From a virus: a stretch of DNA of 47,750 nt. Positions 42,776 through 47,750 of this stretch are shown here, piece by piece. The stretch is from the IMG/VR virus record IMGVR_UViG_3300033149_000701, positions 1-47,750 of that record; one strand, 5' to 3'. Both the position numbers and the translations under genes were made by a program. The notes beneath the pieces were generated by a model. That model ran no database searches and was not told the origin of the DNA. It saw nothing but the letters and a program-made list of their open reading frames with translations. How positions within the stretch are numbered: position 1 is the stretch's first letter; each line of letters opens with the position of its first letter.

Positions 42776-43821
42776 TATCTTCTTCTATTCATATAAGTGT
42801 TGTCTTGTTTTTGATCCAATAAAAGTAAAGTTTGTGCGAACACGTCCATAGCAAGTTCGGGTCCGCAATATTTTTTTACAAAGTCTTTGCCCGCCTGATT
42901 AACATCGTCTTGATACTGCGGATTGTTGACAAAGTATTCGTATGCTTCGTCTATGTCTTCTAGGTCCAACTCTATGCAGTGTTTGGAGAAATCCAAAAGC
43001 GGATAAAACCATTCAACCCAGCTATCTTTGCGATTGCGCAGTTTGAACGGAATGCTGTTGCTGGCCATTTGCCACGGAAGTCGCGCCCAAGCCGATACAT
43101 GCCCGTCAACACAAAGCTGGAACTTGTATTTCAACTGAGACGGCAAATCAACTCGCGAGTCGGAATTTATCAGCACATCATCGGAAATCGCCGGATATTC
43201 CTTTTTGCATCTTTCGATACATTCTTGAAATTCATCAGGATCGTAAAGTGGAGGACGCAATAGCTTGCAGTGATACCTGTCCTTGCGGACAGATGCATTG
43301 TTGGCAATAATCACACGCTGATTGTTTTTTACGTCGTCCATTCTTCCGGTAAGCGATCCAACAAAGCAAATCTTGTTCTCTTTGGTGTGTAACGGAGAAT
43401 CTGCCATATTGACTTGCTCTACCTCCCAGTGACCCTCAAAGTTATTTATGGTAGGAATCAAGATGTGATTGGAGTAAGTCTTTTTACAAAATACCAAGGC
43501 TGGAATATTTTGCATCTGAGGCTCTGTGGCGTCGCTAAGGCAAATGGGAACAAATAGATCCACATTCACTAGATCGGGGTGTTTGGATAGTGCGCGTGCA
43601 AACAAATTACCTACTTGCTTTGTTCTTACGTTTACTATATGTTTATTTTGAAATAATTGGCTAGGGTCTGAAGCTATGGACATTGTGCCTTTGCTGAAAT
43701 GAAGTACAATATCACTTTTACCTATTTGATAAGAATCTAGGACGTGCTGGGCAGTGTAATCCTTGAAACTGCTGGTTTGACTTTCCACCAAACGGAAAAT
43801 CTCGTCACTCACTATCTGCAT
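42775..43821 (-). CDS. Glycosyltransferase, GT90/CAP10-like
   Basis: 348 aa. The diagnostic region is about 229-275: LKYKFQLCVDGHVSAWARLP, WQMASNSIPFKLRNRKDSWV and EWFYPLLDFSKHCIELD. This matches the CAP10/GT90 family pattern (KY-x-x-x-x-DG, R-[LF]-PW-x-x-x-SNS, EW[FY]-x-x-L-x-P). The family transfers xylose, glucose or other sugars in LPS and capsule synthesis; donor and acceptor cannot be predicted here. It overlaps the small-terminase gene by 17 bp. It may decorate phage particles or alter host surface glycans. Confidence 0.8.
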   Translation of the reverse strand: MQIVSDEIFRLVESQTSSFKDYTAQHVLDSYQIGKSDIVLHFSKGTMSIASDPSQLFQNKHIVNVRTKQVGNLFARALSKHPDLVNVDLFVPICLSDATEPQMQNIPALVFCKKTYSNHILIPTINNFEGHWEVEQVNMADSPLHTKENKICFVGSLTGRMDDVKNNQRVIIANNASVRKDRYHCKLLRPPLYDPDEFQECIERCKKEYPAISDDVLINSDSRVDLPSQLKYKFQLCVDGHVSAWARLPWQMASNSIPFKLRNRKDSWVEWFYPLLDFSKHCIELDLEDIDEAYEYFVNNPQYQDDVNQAGKDFVKKYCGPELAMDVFAQTLLLLDQKQDNTYMNRRR

Positions 43822-44617
43822 CGTCGTCTCCTACGCTTTGGTCGTTTAAAAGCGGACGATCAACTTCTCCGTCCTCGAATTGGTGGTAATCGCTCAATCG
43901 CTCGGTGGCTTTGTCGGCAGCTACGGCTTGAACCATAAGGTCGTATCCTTCGGCTTCACGCATTTCTATGGTGTCTAATTCTCGCATCCACATGCTAAAG
44001 TTGGTTTTAGCGTCATCAGCTACACGTTTACGTTGCTCTCTTGTACCTTTAAGGTCTTTGAGGTATTTCTCTTTTTTGGTGAGAAGTTTTTCGTGTTCGT
44101 TGATATACGAGCTTTTGCTTCCAATCAAGCTGCCGAGTTGCGTTTGAAAAATGCCAATCAAACTTGGATCTTGCTCGTCAGGCTCTTTGTCCATTTCCTC
44201 GTCAATCAATTTCTCAAGACGGTCAATGTTTTCTAGAATCGTGCGGCGATCTTCCATAGATCGGTTGATAAGGATCTCGGTGCGAATTACCTCTAGAATT
44301 TGGAGTTCTTCGGTATGCGTGACATCCTCGTTGAACTGACGAAAGAAGTCAATCCAGTTGTGTTCAAAAAATACAATCTCTTCATCTGAGAATTGTTTTT
44401 TAAACTCTTGATAGTAGAATTTTGATCTTAAAGTAGATAACAGGTGTTCTGCATCGGTTAGGTCGCGGGCTTTCAAGTTTTCTTTTTCTATAAACTTGCG
44501 AACCGGCTCTGGCTTGCGGCTTATGTTCTTGGCTATCTCTTCTATGGACAAATCAAAGCAGTTTTGCCTGATATAGTTCATTTCAATGTTGGATAGCTTT
44601 CCTCGTTTAAGACTCAC
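43805..44617 (-). CDS. terS: Putative small terminase subunit
   Basis: 270 aa with a GTG start that overlaps the sigma-factor stop. The N-terminal HTH-like segment (LSNIEMNYIRQNCFDLSIEE, then IAKNISRKPEPVRKFIEKEN) could recognise DNA. A long central coiled-coil region (DRRTILENIDRLEKLIDEEM onward) would support oligomerisation, and the C-terminus is acidic. This HTH, coiled coil, acidic tail layout and a location ahead of the large terminase fit a TerS. Five other genes separate it from terL, so the call rests on architecture. Confidence 0.65.
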   Translation of the reverse strand: MSLKRGKLSNIEMNYIRQNCFDLSIEEIAKNISRKPEPVRKFIEKENLKARDLTDAEHLLSTLRSKFYYQEFKKQFSDEEIVFFEHNWIDFFRQFNEDVTHTEELQILEVIRTEILINRSMEDRRTILENIDRLEKLIDEEMDKEPDEQDPSLIGIFQTQLGSLIGSKSSYINEHEKLLTKKEKYLKDLKGTREQRKRVADDAKTNFSMWMRELDTIEMREAEGYDLMVQAVAADKATERLSDYHQFEDGEVDRPLLNDQSVGDDDADSE

Positions 44618-45203
44618 TGATATCGTTCTCGCTTATTATGCTTTGTATGTATTCTAGCAATATGTCTTTTTTGCTTTTTGTTAATTTGGCTTTGTTGATA
44701 AACCTTATCCAATCTTCACGCATATGAATCGGAATGTTTTGATCTATCAGATTAAATATGCGCTTGCTTGTAATTGAATCTATAAAATCTTCTGTTGCGG
44801 AAAAGTTAATGTCGTGGTATTCATACGTAGACATCAACGTTTTCTTTTTATCGTTACGCGCAATCCATTTAGCGTATAAATCACAGCTAGTCATATCTGC
44901 GTATTTTGTACACTCTCCGTTCACATAAGCTTTGAATGGACAGTTGTCACACGGTTTGTTTGGTCGGCTGTAATTGTTTCTTTTGAAATTATACAACCTG
45001 TTTTTAACATGAACCCAAAGGAAATTCTCCAAAGGACGTATTCCGTCATAATTTTCTAAGCCTTCACAAGCAAACAGCATGGCTTGCTGCTTCATGTCTT
45101 CAATGTCGTGGTATCCGAATTTAAATTTTGTTGCGAGTTTGTTGGCGATTGTTTGGATTATTTCAATTACTTCGTGTTCATCATAGTTGTTCGGAATTTT
45201 CAT
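44607..45203 (-). CDS. RNA polymerase sigma factor, sigma-70 family (probable late factor)
   Basis: 198 aa from ATG 45203 (MKIPNNYDEHEVIEIIQ); a GTG 17 codons upstream is less likely. The region-2-like core reads YHDIEDMKQQAMLFACEGLE, NYDGIRPLENFLWVHVKNRL and YNFKRNNYSRP, matching sigma region 2 (DLxQxxxxxxxxAxxxFD, then FxxxAxxxIRxxL). A Cys cluster (CDNCPFKAYVNGECTKYADM) inserts a possible zinc site, as in phage late sigma factors. The C-terminal helices (KLTKSKKDILLEYIQSIISE) may be a short region 4. At the head of the late operon, it probably directs late transcription, like T4 gp55. Confidence 0.8.
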   Translation of the reverse strand: MKIPNNYDEHEVIEIIQTIANKLATKFKFGYHDIEDMKQQAMLFACEGLENYDGIRPLENFLWVHVKNRLYNFKRNNYSRPNKPCDNCPFKAYVNGECTKYADMTSCDLYAKWIARNDKKKTLMSTYEYHDINFSATEDFIDSITSKRIFNLIDQNIPIHMREDWIRFINKAKLTKSKKDILLEYIQSIISENDISES

Positions 45204-45354
45204 CTGATAAGAATTCTGTAATATCTGGTTCTGGAGTTCCCTCTTCGGCAGCACTGGCAGATTGCTCTAGCTCTTTTTCAACTTCGGCTTGCAATTCTTC
45301 GCTTGCCGTAGTTTTAACTACCGCAGATTTTATAGTGTGTTGAGGTACTTTCAT
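45181..45354 (-). CDS. Small acidic protein upstream of the sigma factor (57 aa)
   Basis: ATG 45354 (MKVPQHTIKSAVVKTTASEE) follows GGAGAAAA. The second half is strongly acidic (VEKELEQSASAAEEGTPEPD). Its end overlaps the sigma start by 23 bp, so the two are likely co-regulated. It is the first gene of the minus-strand module. Unknown function; an acidic partner of RNA polymerase or sigma is one possibility. Confidence 0.6.
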   Translation of the reverse strand: MKVPQHTIKSAVVKTTASEELQAEVEKELEQSASAAEEGTPEPDITEFLSDENSEQL

Positions 45355-45444: not shown

Positions 45445-45654
45445 ATGAATGTAAAATGGACAGACACTGAAAAAGCTTTCATCAAAGAGAATGCCCATTG
45501 TATGAAAGATATTGATATTTCAAAAGCTCTTACAGAAATGTCGGGAAGAACCGTAACACTACAAGCTGTCAGGAAAATGCGTCAGAAGCTTGGTGTTAAA
45601 AAGAAATGTGGGCGTGGTATTTGCGGACTTCTTCTGCCGGATGAAGCGTCCTGA
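45445..45654 (+). CDS. Small HTH-like DNA-binding protein (69 aa)
   Basis: MNVKWTDTEKAFIKENAHCM, then MKDIDISKALTEMSGRTVTL, then QAVRKMRQKLGVKKKCGRG: a Myb/SANT-like or HTH pattern with a W at residue 5, a short IxKALxE helix and a recognition-type helix QAVRKMRQKLG, ending basic. It may bind the operators of the plus-strand cluster. After a run of five A near 45597, the +1 frame stays open to 45724 and encodes a plausible 40-residue continuation (ADFFCRMKRPDGRWAKSGGL), so the C-terminus as drawn could be wrong. Preceded by a sigma-70-like promoter. Confidence 0.65.
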   Translation: MNVKWTDTEKAFIKENAHCMKDIDISKALTEMSGRTVTLQAVRKMRQKLGVKKKCGRGICGLLLPDEAS

Positions 45655-45955
45655 CGGACGATGGGCCAAAAGTGGTGGTTTAGAAAAACGTGCCGCCGAG
45701 TTCTGGGGAAAAGTGGTCATTTAAAGATCGAGGGGTTTGTTTTGTGAGGACCACCTTTGATTTTTCACCCCCCTATCTCATCAGTGTTTGGGATTGAAAA
45801 AACCCCACCCTATTGCAATAATTTTTTGCACGACCTGCCGCCGCAAATTTTTTTGTTTATTTTTCAAAAAAGAGTCATGATTCGCTTGACAAGATGCCGA
45901 TAATAAGTAATAATTGAGTATCAAGTTTGAGTTTTACCTTTTTTGGAGTTTGCTG
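45655..45955. other. Intergenic region with regulatory elements
   Basis: About 300 bp without a clear gene. It contains: a possible shifted continuation of the HTH gene to 45724; an imperfect GTGGTC/GACCAC inverted repeat (45713-45754); a possible promoter TTGAAA-17 bp-AATAAT (45794-45822); a terminator-like GCCGCAAATTTTTTT (45837-45855); and the TTGACA-7 bp-GATAAT element (45886-45904). The A/T runs around 45850-45870 are similar to those in the cassettes further right. Confidence 0.5.
45886..45904 (+). promoter_or_regulatory. Promoter element TTGACA-N7-GATAAT (class II)
   Basis: TTGACA followed after exactly 7 bp by GATAAT, upstream of the 56-aa gene. The 7-bp gap is too short for a normal -35/-10 pair, yet the same arrangement (TTGACT-N7-TATAAT) occurs at 46441-46459. 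The TTGAC box may therefore be a conserved regulator site near -22. Confidence 0.5.
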
Positions 45956-46126: not shown

Positions 46127-46131
46127 AAACC

Positions 46132-46170
46132 TGCGGGGCCTGGCCGCGCAAATTTTTTTCGTGTTTTTTT
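46132..46170 (+). terminator. Terminator of cassette A
   Basis: Hairpin TGCG-g-GGCC / GGCC-g-CGCA (imperfect palindrome), then AAATTTTTTTCG and a second T-run. It is the first half of an 89-bp terminator-promoter cassette that is repeated at 47474-47562. Confidence 0.7.
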
Positions 46171-46188
46171 AATATTAAACCGGCTCTC

Positions 46189-46220
46189 TGACCTAACGTG
46201 TCTCTATGGTATGCGATAAT
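46189..46220 (+). promoter_or_regulatory. Operator-promoter of cassette A (class I)
   Basis: TGACCTAACGTGTC, an imperfect TGAC/GTC inverted repeat, followed after 10 bp by GATAAT with TGC just upstream (extended -10). Drives the 27-aa membrane peptide gene, which starts about 35 bp downstream of the expected start site. Same 10-bp spacing as the other class I sites. Confidence 0.7.
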
Positions 46221-46260
46221 ATATATGTAAGAGGTTAAGAAGTTAAAAGGAGTTTTGATT

Positions 46261-46344
46261 ATGGTTAAACCTAGTTTGTTTGAGTGGTTGTTTATTTTTT
46301 CCTTAATTTGTTATATTTTAATCCAACTTTTTTGGCCTATCTAA
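46261..46344 (+). CDS. 27-aa single-membrane-span peptide
   Basis: MVKPSLFEWLFIFSLICYIL is followed by IQLFWPI: almost entirely one transmembrane helix with a short charged N-terminus. A strong ribosome binding site (AAAGGAG) lies 8 nt upstream. Start codon, ribosome binding site and class I promoter all fit, so it is likely expressed. Possible roles are membrane perturbation, superinfection control or lysis regulation; nothing distinguishes these. Confidence 0.65.
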   Translation: MVKPSLFEWLFIFSLICYILIQLFWPI

Positions 46345-46440
46345 GTTCTTTGCTGGTAAGGGTTTATGAAACGTGTCCCGAAAACTAAGTGTCCACCAAC
46401 GACGTAACTACTTTGCCAGTAACGACTTACGATTTTGCCC

Positions 46441-46459
46441 TTGACTCGTTGTATATAAT
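46441..46459 (+). promoter_or_regulatory. Promoter element TTGACT-N7-TATAAT (class II)
   Basis: Same geometry as at 45886-45904. The gene behind it starts at 46498, after AGGAG. The 150 bp between 46345 and this element hold no gene; one short 13-codon frame there is not credible. Confidence 0.5.
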
Positions 46460-46497
46460 TAAGTAAAAGAAGAAAAGAGTTTAGGAGATTTGAGATT

Positions 46498-46638
46498 ATG
46501 GTTAAAAGCACTTTCATCAATCAGGTTTGGACTATCACGGTCCCCAATGTTGCTACCTTCCGTTTGTGCTGCAAGAATGGTACAAACTTGACCGCTCTCA
46601 ATAGTTTGAGAAAATTGGCAAAAAGTTTGGCAAAGTGA
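46498..46638 (+). CDS. Small basic protein (46 aa)
   Basis: MVKSTFINQVWTITVPNVAT is followed by a CC pair (FRLCCKNG) and ends in a Lys-rich helix (LRKLAKSLAK). AGGAG lies about 10 nt upstream. Its TGA stop lies inside the next GTGACCTAACGTGTCAC operator, so the end of this gene and the control of the next are fused. No known family. Confidence 0.65.
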   Translation: MVKSTFINQVWTITVPNVATFRLCCKNGTNLTALNSLRKLAKSLAK

Positions 46639-46667
46639 CCTAACGTGTCACGGGGTTGGGCGATAAT
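46635..46667 (+). promoter_or_regulatory. Operator-promoter (class I), before the five-gene microprotein unit
   Basis: GTGACCTAACGTGTCAC (46635-46651), a GTGAC-N7-GTCAC inverted repeat, then 10 bp and GATAAT (46662-46667). The ribosome binding site AAAGGAAACAAG of the 53-aa gene follows. No -35 box is seen; the operator takes its place. Confidence 0.75.
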
Positions 46668-46700
46668 AGTAATATGAAAGAAAGCAAGAAAGGAAACAAG

Positions 46701-46862
46701 ATGATTAGAATTATCACTAAACTCTACGATGGTTCAACCTATAGCAAGACGGTTGACATTGGTGGAACTCCCGATAGCGGGATCAACTGTTTGGTTGACG
46801 ATGTTGTTTTTAGTACGTGGATGCGTTGCGAAGTCAAAGAAGTAAATTGGAGGTTTGTGTAA
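46701..46862 (+). CDS. Small protein (53 aa), first of a TAATG-coupled chain
   Basis: ATG 46701 (MIRIITKLYDGSTYSKTVDI) follows AAAGGAAACAAG; earlier in-frame starts lie in the promoter region. It is beta-like with two Cys (INCLVDDVVFSTWMRCEVKE). Its stop overlaps the next start as TAATG. Unknown function. Confidence 0.7.
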   Translation: MIRIITKLYDGSTYSKTVDIGGTPDSGINCLVDDVVFSTWMRCEVKEVNWRFV

Positions 46863-47020
46863 TGAAAAACTTGTCTAAAATACAATGGGTAAACAAGTAC
46901 GGCGAGCGTATTCAGCCGAAAACTACCGATGTTTATGTTGAGTGCAAAAAGTGTAACTTGATGGCAGTCGAACCCATCAAGACCTGCTTCAAGTGTTCTG
47001 GCCCTATGGAGAAAGTATAA
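46862..47020 (+). CDS. 52-aa zinc-ribbon protein
   Basis: Starts as TAATG from the previous gene. VECKKC and KTCFKCSGPM form a four-Cys zinc ribbon over about 16 residues, after a basic N-terminal half (MKNLSKIQWVNKYGERIQPK). Such small ribbons often bind nucleic acid or host enzymes. Ends in TAATG with the next gene. Confidence 0.75.
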   Translation: MKNLSKIQWVNKYGERIQPKTTDVYVECKKCNLMAVEPIKTCFKCSGPMEKV

Positions 47021-47235
47021 TGAGCTTATACCCTATGTTGATCGAACAAGTAAAGGATGGTGGCAACGGTTACGGTTGGTCGGTTGTATCGTTGGGCGAT
47101 GGTATTTTCGAGCTTGCCGTTTTGAAAGATGGCAAAATCTGTTATCACACCCCAATCACAAACGACATATTCCGTGGCGATTGGATCGAAGTCAATCAAG
47201 CGATTGATCGAATTGAAGAATTGGAGGCTGTCTAA
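47020..47235 (+). CDS. Small protein (71 aa)
   Basis: MSLYPMLIEQVKDGGNGYGW starts at TAATG with GGAG upstream. Hydrophilic and beta-like (GDGIFELAVLKDGKICYHTP, then ITNDIFRGDWIEVNQAID), with an acidic C-terminus (RIEELEAV). Resembles a small SH3/barrel-like protein by layout only. Third in the coupled chain. Confidence 0.7.
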   Translation: MSLYPMLIEQVKDGGNGYGWSVVSLGDGIFELAVLKDGKICYHTPITNDIFRGDWIEVNQAIDRIEELEAV

Positions 47236-47363
47236 TGTTTTTCTTTGAGGTGTTATTCTTGCTTTGTATAATGGTTCTTGCATCTACATGGGGTTGGCCC
47301 TTGGCTATCGTTGGCGGTGCTTTGCTTTTGTTTAATGCGTATCTACAGGGGTTGAATAACTAA
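47235..47363 (+). CDS. 42-aa membrane microprotein
   Basis: TAATG start; MFFFEVLFLLCIMVLASTWG and WPLAIVGGALLLFNAYLQGL make two hydrophobic helices, so a small integral membrane protein is likely. Fourth in the chain. Unknown role; possibly membrane or lysis related. Confidence 0.65.
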   Translation: MFFFEVLFLLCIMVLASTWGWPLAIVGGALLLFNAYLQGLNN

Positions 47364-47458
47364 TGGGTTGCTTTATCATACTTGTTATGATCTTTTTATT
47401 TGCTTCGCCTGATTTCCTTAGAGGTATGGGTGAGGGATTGGGAAGTAATAAGTTTTAG
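47363..47458 (+). CDS. 31-aa membrane microprotein
   Basis: TAATG start; MGCFIILVMIFLFASPDFLR has one hydrophobic helix followed by a Gly-rich tail (GMGEGLGSNKF). A Cys at position 3 follows a short N-terminus. Last gene before the cassette B terminator. Confidence 0.6.
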   Translation: MGCFIILVMIFLFASPDFLRGMGEGLGSNKF

Positions 47459-47473
47459 GGGTTGACAAAAATC

Positions 47474-47515
47474 TGCCCGGCCCGCCCGCGCAAAATTTTT
47501 TCCTGTATTTTATTA
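47474..47515 (+). terminator. Terminator of cassette B
   Basis: Imperfect palindrome TGC-c-CGG / CCG-c-GCA followed by AAAATTTTTT and further T-runs. Homologous in position and order to the terminator at 46132. Ends the five-gene unit. Confidence 0.7.
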
Positions 47516-47529
47516 TTTTAACCGGCACA

Positions 47530-47562
47530 GTGACCTAGTGTGTCACTACCATATACGATAAT
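47530..47562 (+). promoter_or_regulatory. Operator-promoter of cassette B (class I)
   Basis: GTGACCTAGTGTGTCAC, 10 bp, GATAAT. The core differs at two bases from the other class I sites, but the inverted repeat arms and spacing are kept. The -10 box is only 6 bp from the next ATG. Confidence 0.75.
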
Positions 47563-47568
47563 ATACAT

Positions 47569-47700
47569 ATGAGCATTGAACGACTGATGACGATGATCGC
47601 CTACGGTATCACACCGGCACGCCCCGATGGTTGGAGTGTAGGACGTTGGAACGCTGCTAAAAAAATGGCAAAAAAAGCGTTTGAATTTATCCCCAAGTGA
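47569..47700 (+). CDS. 43-aa protein, possibly leaderless
   Basis: ATG 47569 lies 6 bp after the GATAAT box, so transcription should start at or next to the A of ATG and the mRNA would be leaderless; no ribosome binding site exists before it. The protein is basic (MSIERLMTMIAYGITPARPD, then GRWNAAKKMAKKAFEFIPK). A later in-frame ATG is a less supported alternative. Its TGA overlaps the next operator. Confidence 0.65.
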   Translation: MSIERLMTMIAYGITPARPDGWSVGRWNAAKKMAKKAFEFIPK

Positions 47701-47729
47701 CCTAACGTGTCACAGGGTTATGCTATAAT
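47697..47729 (+). promoter_or_regulatory. Operator-promoter (class I) at the right window edge
   Basis: GTGACCTAACGTGTCAC (47697-47713), 10 bp, TATAAT (47724-47729) with TG two bases upstream. The leader that follows (AACAAGAAAGGAAA) matches the ribosome binding site leader at 46686-46700, so another small gene probably begins just outside the window. Confidence 0.75.
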
Positions 47730-47750
47730 TTAGTGTAACAAGAAAGGAAA

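Follow-up and report, generated by a model that had tools for sequence, protein, structure and literature searches.

Class 1 Sites in the Window

Do four short palindromes, each standing at one distance upstream of a -10 box, mark promoters under a common regulator, and would such a regulator switch them on or off? The question is raised by the virus record IMGVR_UViG_3300033149_000701, of which positions 1-47,750 were analyzed (hereafter the window, i.e., the whole stretch of 47,750 nt). A preliminary description of this DNA had noticed four inverted repeats followed after 10 bp by GATAAT or TATAAT, without a -35 box, and had ascribed them to one phage regulator acting either as an activator or as a repressor. 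Throughout, class 1 denotes the palindrome plus 10 bp plus [GT]ATAAT without a -35, and class 2 denotes the sigma70 promoter TTGACA-N17-TATAAT. The four sites in the window are real, all of them (46188, 46635, 47530, and 47697) having been recovered:

46188-46220, + strand: class 1 site 1; operator 46188-46204 (CTGACCTAACGTGTCTC), -10 GATAAT 46215-46220, predicted +1 at 46227
46635-46667, + strand: class 1 site 2; operator 46635-46651 (GTGACCTAACGTGTCAC), -10 GATAAT 46662-46667, predicted +1 at 46674
47530-47562, + strand: class 1 site 3; operator 47530-47546 (GTGACCTAGTGTGTCAC), -10 GATAAT 47557-47562, predicted +1 at 47569
47697-47729, + strand: class 1 site 4; operator 47697-47713 (GTGACCTAACGTGTCAC), extended -10 TGC-TATAAT 47724-47729, predicted +1 at 47736

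The gap between the palindrome and the -10 is exactly 10 bp at all four sites. The operator of site 1 is degenerate, with two arm mismatches, and the site has a PWM score of 31.9 (none in the reversed-PWM control); the operator of site 3 has the core CTAGTGT. With up to three mismatches allowed, the composite occurs four times in the window, compared with 0.57 expected from shuffles, and the extended and refined consensus matches just these four sites in a scan of the window, the reversed control giving 0. A literature search for the 17-mer returned no paper.

Small genes follow sites 1-3, behind which the window has ORFs of 27, 53, and 43 amino acids. The relevant features around them are the following:

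43805-44617, - strand: 270-aa protein with an N-terminal HTH, conserved beside the sigma gene; no Pfam match
44607-45254, - strand: gp55-like sigma factor gene, marking the divergent junction; its Pfam Sigma70_r2 match (E = 7e-4) falls below the curated cut-off
45445-45654, + strand: 69-aa three-helix HTH protein, the regulator candidate of the preliminary description, rejected below
45886-45914, + strand: class 2 promoter TTGACA-N17-AATAAT with the spacer element CCGATA, 11/12 matches
46261-46344, + strand: 27-aa hydrophobic ORF behind site 1, SD AAGGAG
46701-46862, + strand: 53-aa ORF behind site 2, SD AAAGGAA
47569-47700, + strand: 43-aa ORF behind site 3 (MSIERLMTMIAYG...), apparently leaderless

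The 270-aa HTH protein is possibly the small terminase. The stop codon of the 43-aa ORF falls within operator 4. GC-rich T-tailed elements (CTGC..GGCC..GCGCAAATTTTTT) precede class 1 site 1 (46127-46160), class 1 site 3 (47468-47505), and the class 2 promoter (about 45826-45855); the one at 46127-46160 was called terminator-like. Distinct from the class 1 palindrome is an inverted repeat of the CCTAAGTCCTT...AAGGACTTAGG type found beside some operators of other contigs (see below), of which a weaker copy (CGTAACTACTT...TAACGACTTACG) lies at 46399-46432, ahead of a TTGAC...TATAAT stretch.

Anatomy of the Class 1 Promoter

The check for further copies that the preliminary description had called for yielded a regulon-like set ahead of small genes in relatives. 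IMG/VR has the exact composite, GTGACCTANNGTGTCAC-N10-KATAAT, in 61 stretches, some of them with 2-4 copies, and the bare exact 17-mer in 78, compared with 2 for the reversed-letter control. The consensus of 93 unique sites reads KTGACC-TAAC-GTGTCAC, five variable bases, TRKRC, GATAAT or TATAAT, A, and a conserved TATA downstream of the -10 that contains the predicted start. Within it, the conserved operator core is KTGACC-N4-GTGTCAC, with symmetric arms and an asymmetric interior; sites seeded by the right arm have the left arm [GTA]TGACC in 84/84 cases, and sites seeded by the left arm have C6 in 87/87.

The 10-bp lock between the repeat and [GT]ATAAT extends beyond the window. When palindromes were sought without a -10 (117 unique), NATAAT was found at exactly 10 bp in 102 and at 9 bp in 2, and several of the others had GATACT at 10 bp. 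The absence of a -35 was also borne out, the best match to TTGACA at spacers of 16-18 being at most 3/6 over the 93 unique sites. Most of these (79/93) have G at -12, and TG at -15/-14, i.e., an extended -10, accompanies 14/14 TATAAT sites versus 21/79 GATAAT sites (p = 1.6e-7, to be read as an upper claim, because related phages are not independent samples). A-rich tracts lie upstream of the class 1 sites, and the 10-bp spacer, the flanks, and the downstream genes vary around a conserved operator.

In whole large contigs, the composite is confined to one cluster per phage and to one strand. Among 45 contigs, 100/100 class 1 sites are on the early strand, opposite the sigma gene, and 0 on the other, located 0.7-8.5 kb from the gp55-like sigma gene and pointing away from it. 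A few operators without a -10 adjoin G-rich blocks upstream of ordinary promoters. Those at L083 5977 and 7117 (reverse strand), L014 923 (reverse strand), and L023 6166 have G-rich blocks together with a further inverted repeat of the CCTAAGTCCTT...AAGGACTTAGG type, and in some cases an ordinary promoter follows downstream.

Class 2 Promoters as an Internal Control

Class 2 promoters in the same 45 contigs number 227 on the early strand and 3 on the other. They have TTGACA, then CGATA (about -24 to -20), TRTGN, and TATAAT, and their initial transcribed sequence is ATAACA; AT[AG][AG] is found at the predicted +1 in 51%, against no more than 6% at neighboring offsets. Class 1, equally far from its -10, has ATAAGA, ATAACA, or ATGACA. 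ATAAnA begins 7 bp past the -10 in both classes alike, which agrees with the -10 boxes that had been assigned in the preliminary description. The two classes also have in common the strand, the small-gene region, and TR at -17/-16, but class 2 has TTGACA and the CGATA spacer element at the position that the operator occupies in class 1.

Because the initial transcribed sequence is common to both classes, the -10 and predicted +1 of class 1 are fixed, and the operator extends from -39 to -23; and because the core is common to both, it is specifically the -35 and the adjoining spacer that the operator replaces. As predicted promoters, class 1 sites are shown by this comparison to be a class 2 core in which the -35 and adjacent spacer have been exchanged for the operator, with its center at about -31. 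The predicted +1 of site 3 (47569) is the A of the next gene's ATG, and in the small gene family to which this gene belongs (MSIERLMTMIAYG at window 47569-47700, MKIEKLMTLICYG at L062 10446) the ATG stands exactly at the predicted class 1 +1. Both homologs look leaderless for this reason, in agreement with the +1 assignment.

We also considered whether the true -10 might lie 11 bp further downstream, at the TATA. The operator would then be at -42, where class II activators usually bind. This reading was rejected, since its sixth base is not T and the shared initial transcribed sequence sets +1 at 7 bp past [GT]ATAAT. At many class 2 loci (e.g., window 45886-45914 and L004 6735-11189), CGATA inside the 17-bp spacer is found together with an upstream AAAGnTnCCCC block.

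Distribution Across Phages

All composite-bearing IMG/VR stretches belong to one uncultured phage group, which is mostly marine according to our reading of the IMG sample numbers. The motif contigs are fragmentary, the longest measuring 162.7 kb, and have about 40% GC. The gp55-like sigma gene is conserved in 51 of them, most of which also have genes for the 270-aa HTH protein, GDP-mannose dehydratase, HNH, and ERCC4, and the motif contigs without the sigma gene have group-specific early genes in common. Relatives of the sigma gene are present in at least hundreds of IMG/VR contigs, and the motif in part of them: among the sigma-gene clusters whose early side spans 6 kb or more, 18/44 have it. 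No variant operator was seen by eye at 19 loci of class-1-negative relatives. With respect to cultured phages, the motif contigs have no near DNA relative in INPHARED, the best TerL identities are 24-32%, and the composite is absent from the three cultured phages that gave the best RNR matches.

About a dozen unrelated contigs carry the 17-mer without a -10 at 10 bp and were treated as chance or unrelated occurrences; in five unrelated viral contigs of 48-54% GC (L321, L323, L324, L309, and L315), the exact 17-mer without a -10 is apparently intergenic. Some class-1-negative relatives (L249 12589, L176 15224, and L247 14253) have another repeated promoter form, TTGCAAGCTAAA... TATAAT-GTCGATATAA. 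The large phages of the group also carry full-length DUF1501 genes, an odd phage cargo with up to several genes per genome (e.g., L072 15336-16610, L077 3289-4596, and L094 9673-10974). In these phages, the gp55-like factor is joined by ECF-like sigma factors, one or two in number and 148-169 amino acids long:

L279, 12935-13381: ECF-like sigma gene
L285, 14946-15425: ECF-like sigma gene
L087, 11158-11649: ECF-like sigma gene
L088, 14387-14896: ECF-like sigma gene

Search for the Regulator

The 69-aa HTH protein had been proposed as the protein that binds these sites, and this proposal had to be abandoned. Its family is present in 8/18 class-1-positive versus 15/16 class-1-negative contigs, an inverse relationship (Fisher p = 0.003), and it is absent from the class 1-bearing contigs G011 (162.7 kb) and G004 (138.5 kb). 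Being missing from these two and present in nearly all negatives, it is not the regulator. AlphaFold predicts a three-helix HTH (mean pLDDT 80), for which no significant PDB match was obtained (best E 0.15).

No early-region family was present in all class-1-positive phages, and families limited to at most 2/16 negatives reach at most 11/18 positives. Likewise, no HTH family was exclusive to the positives when six large class-1-positive contigs were compared with four class-1-negative ones. The closest discriminator is the presence of extra sigma-like genes (six positive versus one negative large contigs), the divergent ones being found in negatives as well. Scanning 60 shared families against Pfam and PHROG gave sigma factors, genes for replication and nucleotide metabolism, rIIB, and PhoH, and no repressor-like family was among the 25 families listed. 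Targeted searches gave MotA and AsiA (PF09158 and PF09010) in 0/10 contigs at E <= 10, where the contigs may be incomplete, and OmpR/PhoB-type Trans_reg_C (PF00486) in 0/13 contigs as a phage-encoded domain. The cI-type HTH_3 (PF01381) and tyrosine integrase (PF00589), the one repressor type and the one integrase type that the search covered, were found in 0/13 contigs.

A Model of Activator-Dependent Promoters

We propose, with a probability of about 0.6, that class 1 sites are activator-dependent early or middle promoters of MotA-like geometry that respond to a putative, probably dimeric activator. Taken together, the weak core, the missing -35, the single spacing, and the single orientation point to an activator in contact with RNA polymerase. 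In this model, a sequence-specific protein, probably as a dimer, would bind the palindrome and contact the RNA polymerase holoenzyme, most likely through sigma region 4, or through a remodeled sigma as in the AsiA/MotA case of T4, so that use of the GATAAT core, weak and lacking a -35, would depend on the presence of the binding protein. A second group of small takeover genes would thereby come under joint control, interspersed among early genes that are expressed constitutively. The binding and polymerase contact steps are those that we infer from sequence features. More tentatively, it is possible that a phage-encoded activator unrelated to MotA/AsiA takes the -35 position via the 17-bp palindrome and thereby reprograms host RNA polymerase; if so, part of a group with hundreds of public virome contigs would use a phage-encoded activator other than MotA/AsiA.

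Between the two modes of action that the preliminary description had set side by side, the evidence favors activation and makes repression less likely. A repressor could also occupy the operator place, since a palindrome over the core promoter is where repressors usually sit, and a phage protein at -39 to -23 might silence the small genes for temporal shut-off or superinfection exclusion. The TATAAT subtype with its extended -10 could work without a -35, and some operators lie away from any -10, beside G-rich blocks. However, a repressible promoter should keep a good core, whereas class 1 has no -35 and mostly -12G among neighbors with perfect hexamers, and fixed orientation and spacing are unnecessary for repression. 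Given that the core seems too weak to need a repressor, and that neither a tyrosine integrase nor a cI-type HTH_3 was found in 13 contigs, we regard repression as unlikely. Alternatively, the activator might be a hijacked host transcription factor, with the operator conserved because the host protein is. The operator is indeed nearly invariant compared with the neighboring 270-aa protein, which has 31-66% identity to that of the window, and the six large class-1-positive contigs have no common class-1-specific regulator family. Against a host factor, a scan of 84,980 species genomes, limited to the TANN core, found the composite in no more than two contigs, both from the phage group, the operators of the two MAGs are otherwise confined to phage-like contigs, bar one likely chance match, and the composite sites in IMG/VR belong to one phage group. 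We consider this origin somewhat unlikely.

It is quite improbable that the palindrome is read as a -35 by region 4 of a phage sigma factor. There are two or three sigma-like genes per phage, with an ECF-like one in all six large class-1-positive contigs, and GATAAT is unlike the host TATAAT, but a 17-bp palindrome is not expected of a sigma -35, divergent sigma genes occur in class-1-negative contigs too, and the TATAAT subtype with TG resembles host sigma70 and has the initial transcribed sequence in common with class 2. Least credible of all, in our view, is that the sites were spread by duplication of one early gene cassette, having no regulatory meaning of their own. Many sites in related phages with similar upstream A-tracts would fit such a history, but the operator is conserved amid a varying spacer and varying flanks, and the differing downstream genes argue against a single duplicated cassette.

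The activator model concerns a cis-element whose spacing, orientation, -10, predicted start site, and gene set were all defined from sequence alone, in an abundant uncultured phage group for which we found no regulatory data. The class 2 promoters and the relatives without the element provide built-in controls, and a second level of early control is therefore testable.

Comparison with Known Systems

In T4 middle promoters, a MotA box centered at -30 stands in place of the -35, the sigma70 -10 is kept, and about half of the promoters have TGn, the genes served being prereplicative (PMC2988021, PMC6755090). The MotA box has the sequence (a/t)(a/t)(a/t)TGCTTtA and is located 12 +/- 1 bp from the -10 (PMC2988021). 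Class 1 is similar in geometry only, in that an element centered at about -30/-31 replaces the -35 upstream of a sigma70 -10. It differs in being a 17-bp palindrome, KTGACC-N4-GTGTCAC, at a fixed 10 bp, and in that MotA/AsiA domains were not detected in these phages (10 contigs). The MotA box, moreover, is short and asymmetric, and is bound by MotA as a monomer.

Actinophage stoperators and lambda-type operators resemble class 1 in that several near-identical short operators are found per genome. In contrast to these, class 1 is tied to the -10 at one spacing, in phages where no cI-type HTH_3 or tyrosine integrase was found. In E. coli promoters activated by PhoB, the pho box stands in for the -35, with about 10 bp between it and the downstream -10; it is composed of two 7-bp direct repeats (CTGTCAT) with an 11-bp period. 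PhoB promoters are therefore similar to class 1 in the distance between the box and the -10, but the class 1 operator is an inverted repeat with 5-bp arms rather than direct repeats. Class 1 is a real promoter class that we have not found described; it would follow, in a variant form, a known principle, the replacement of the -35 by an activator, here a putative one, and it bears on whether MotA-style -35 replacement evolved more than once.
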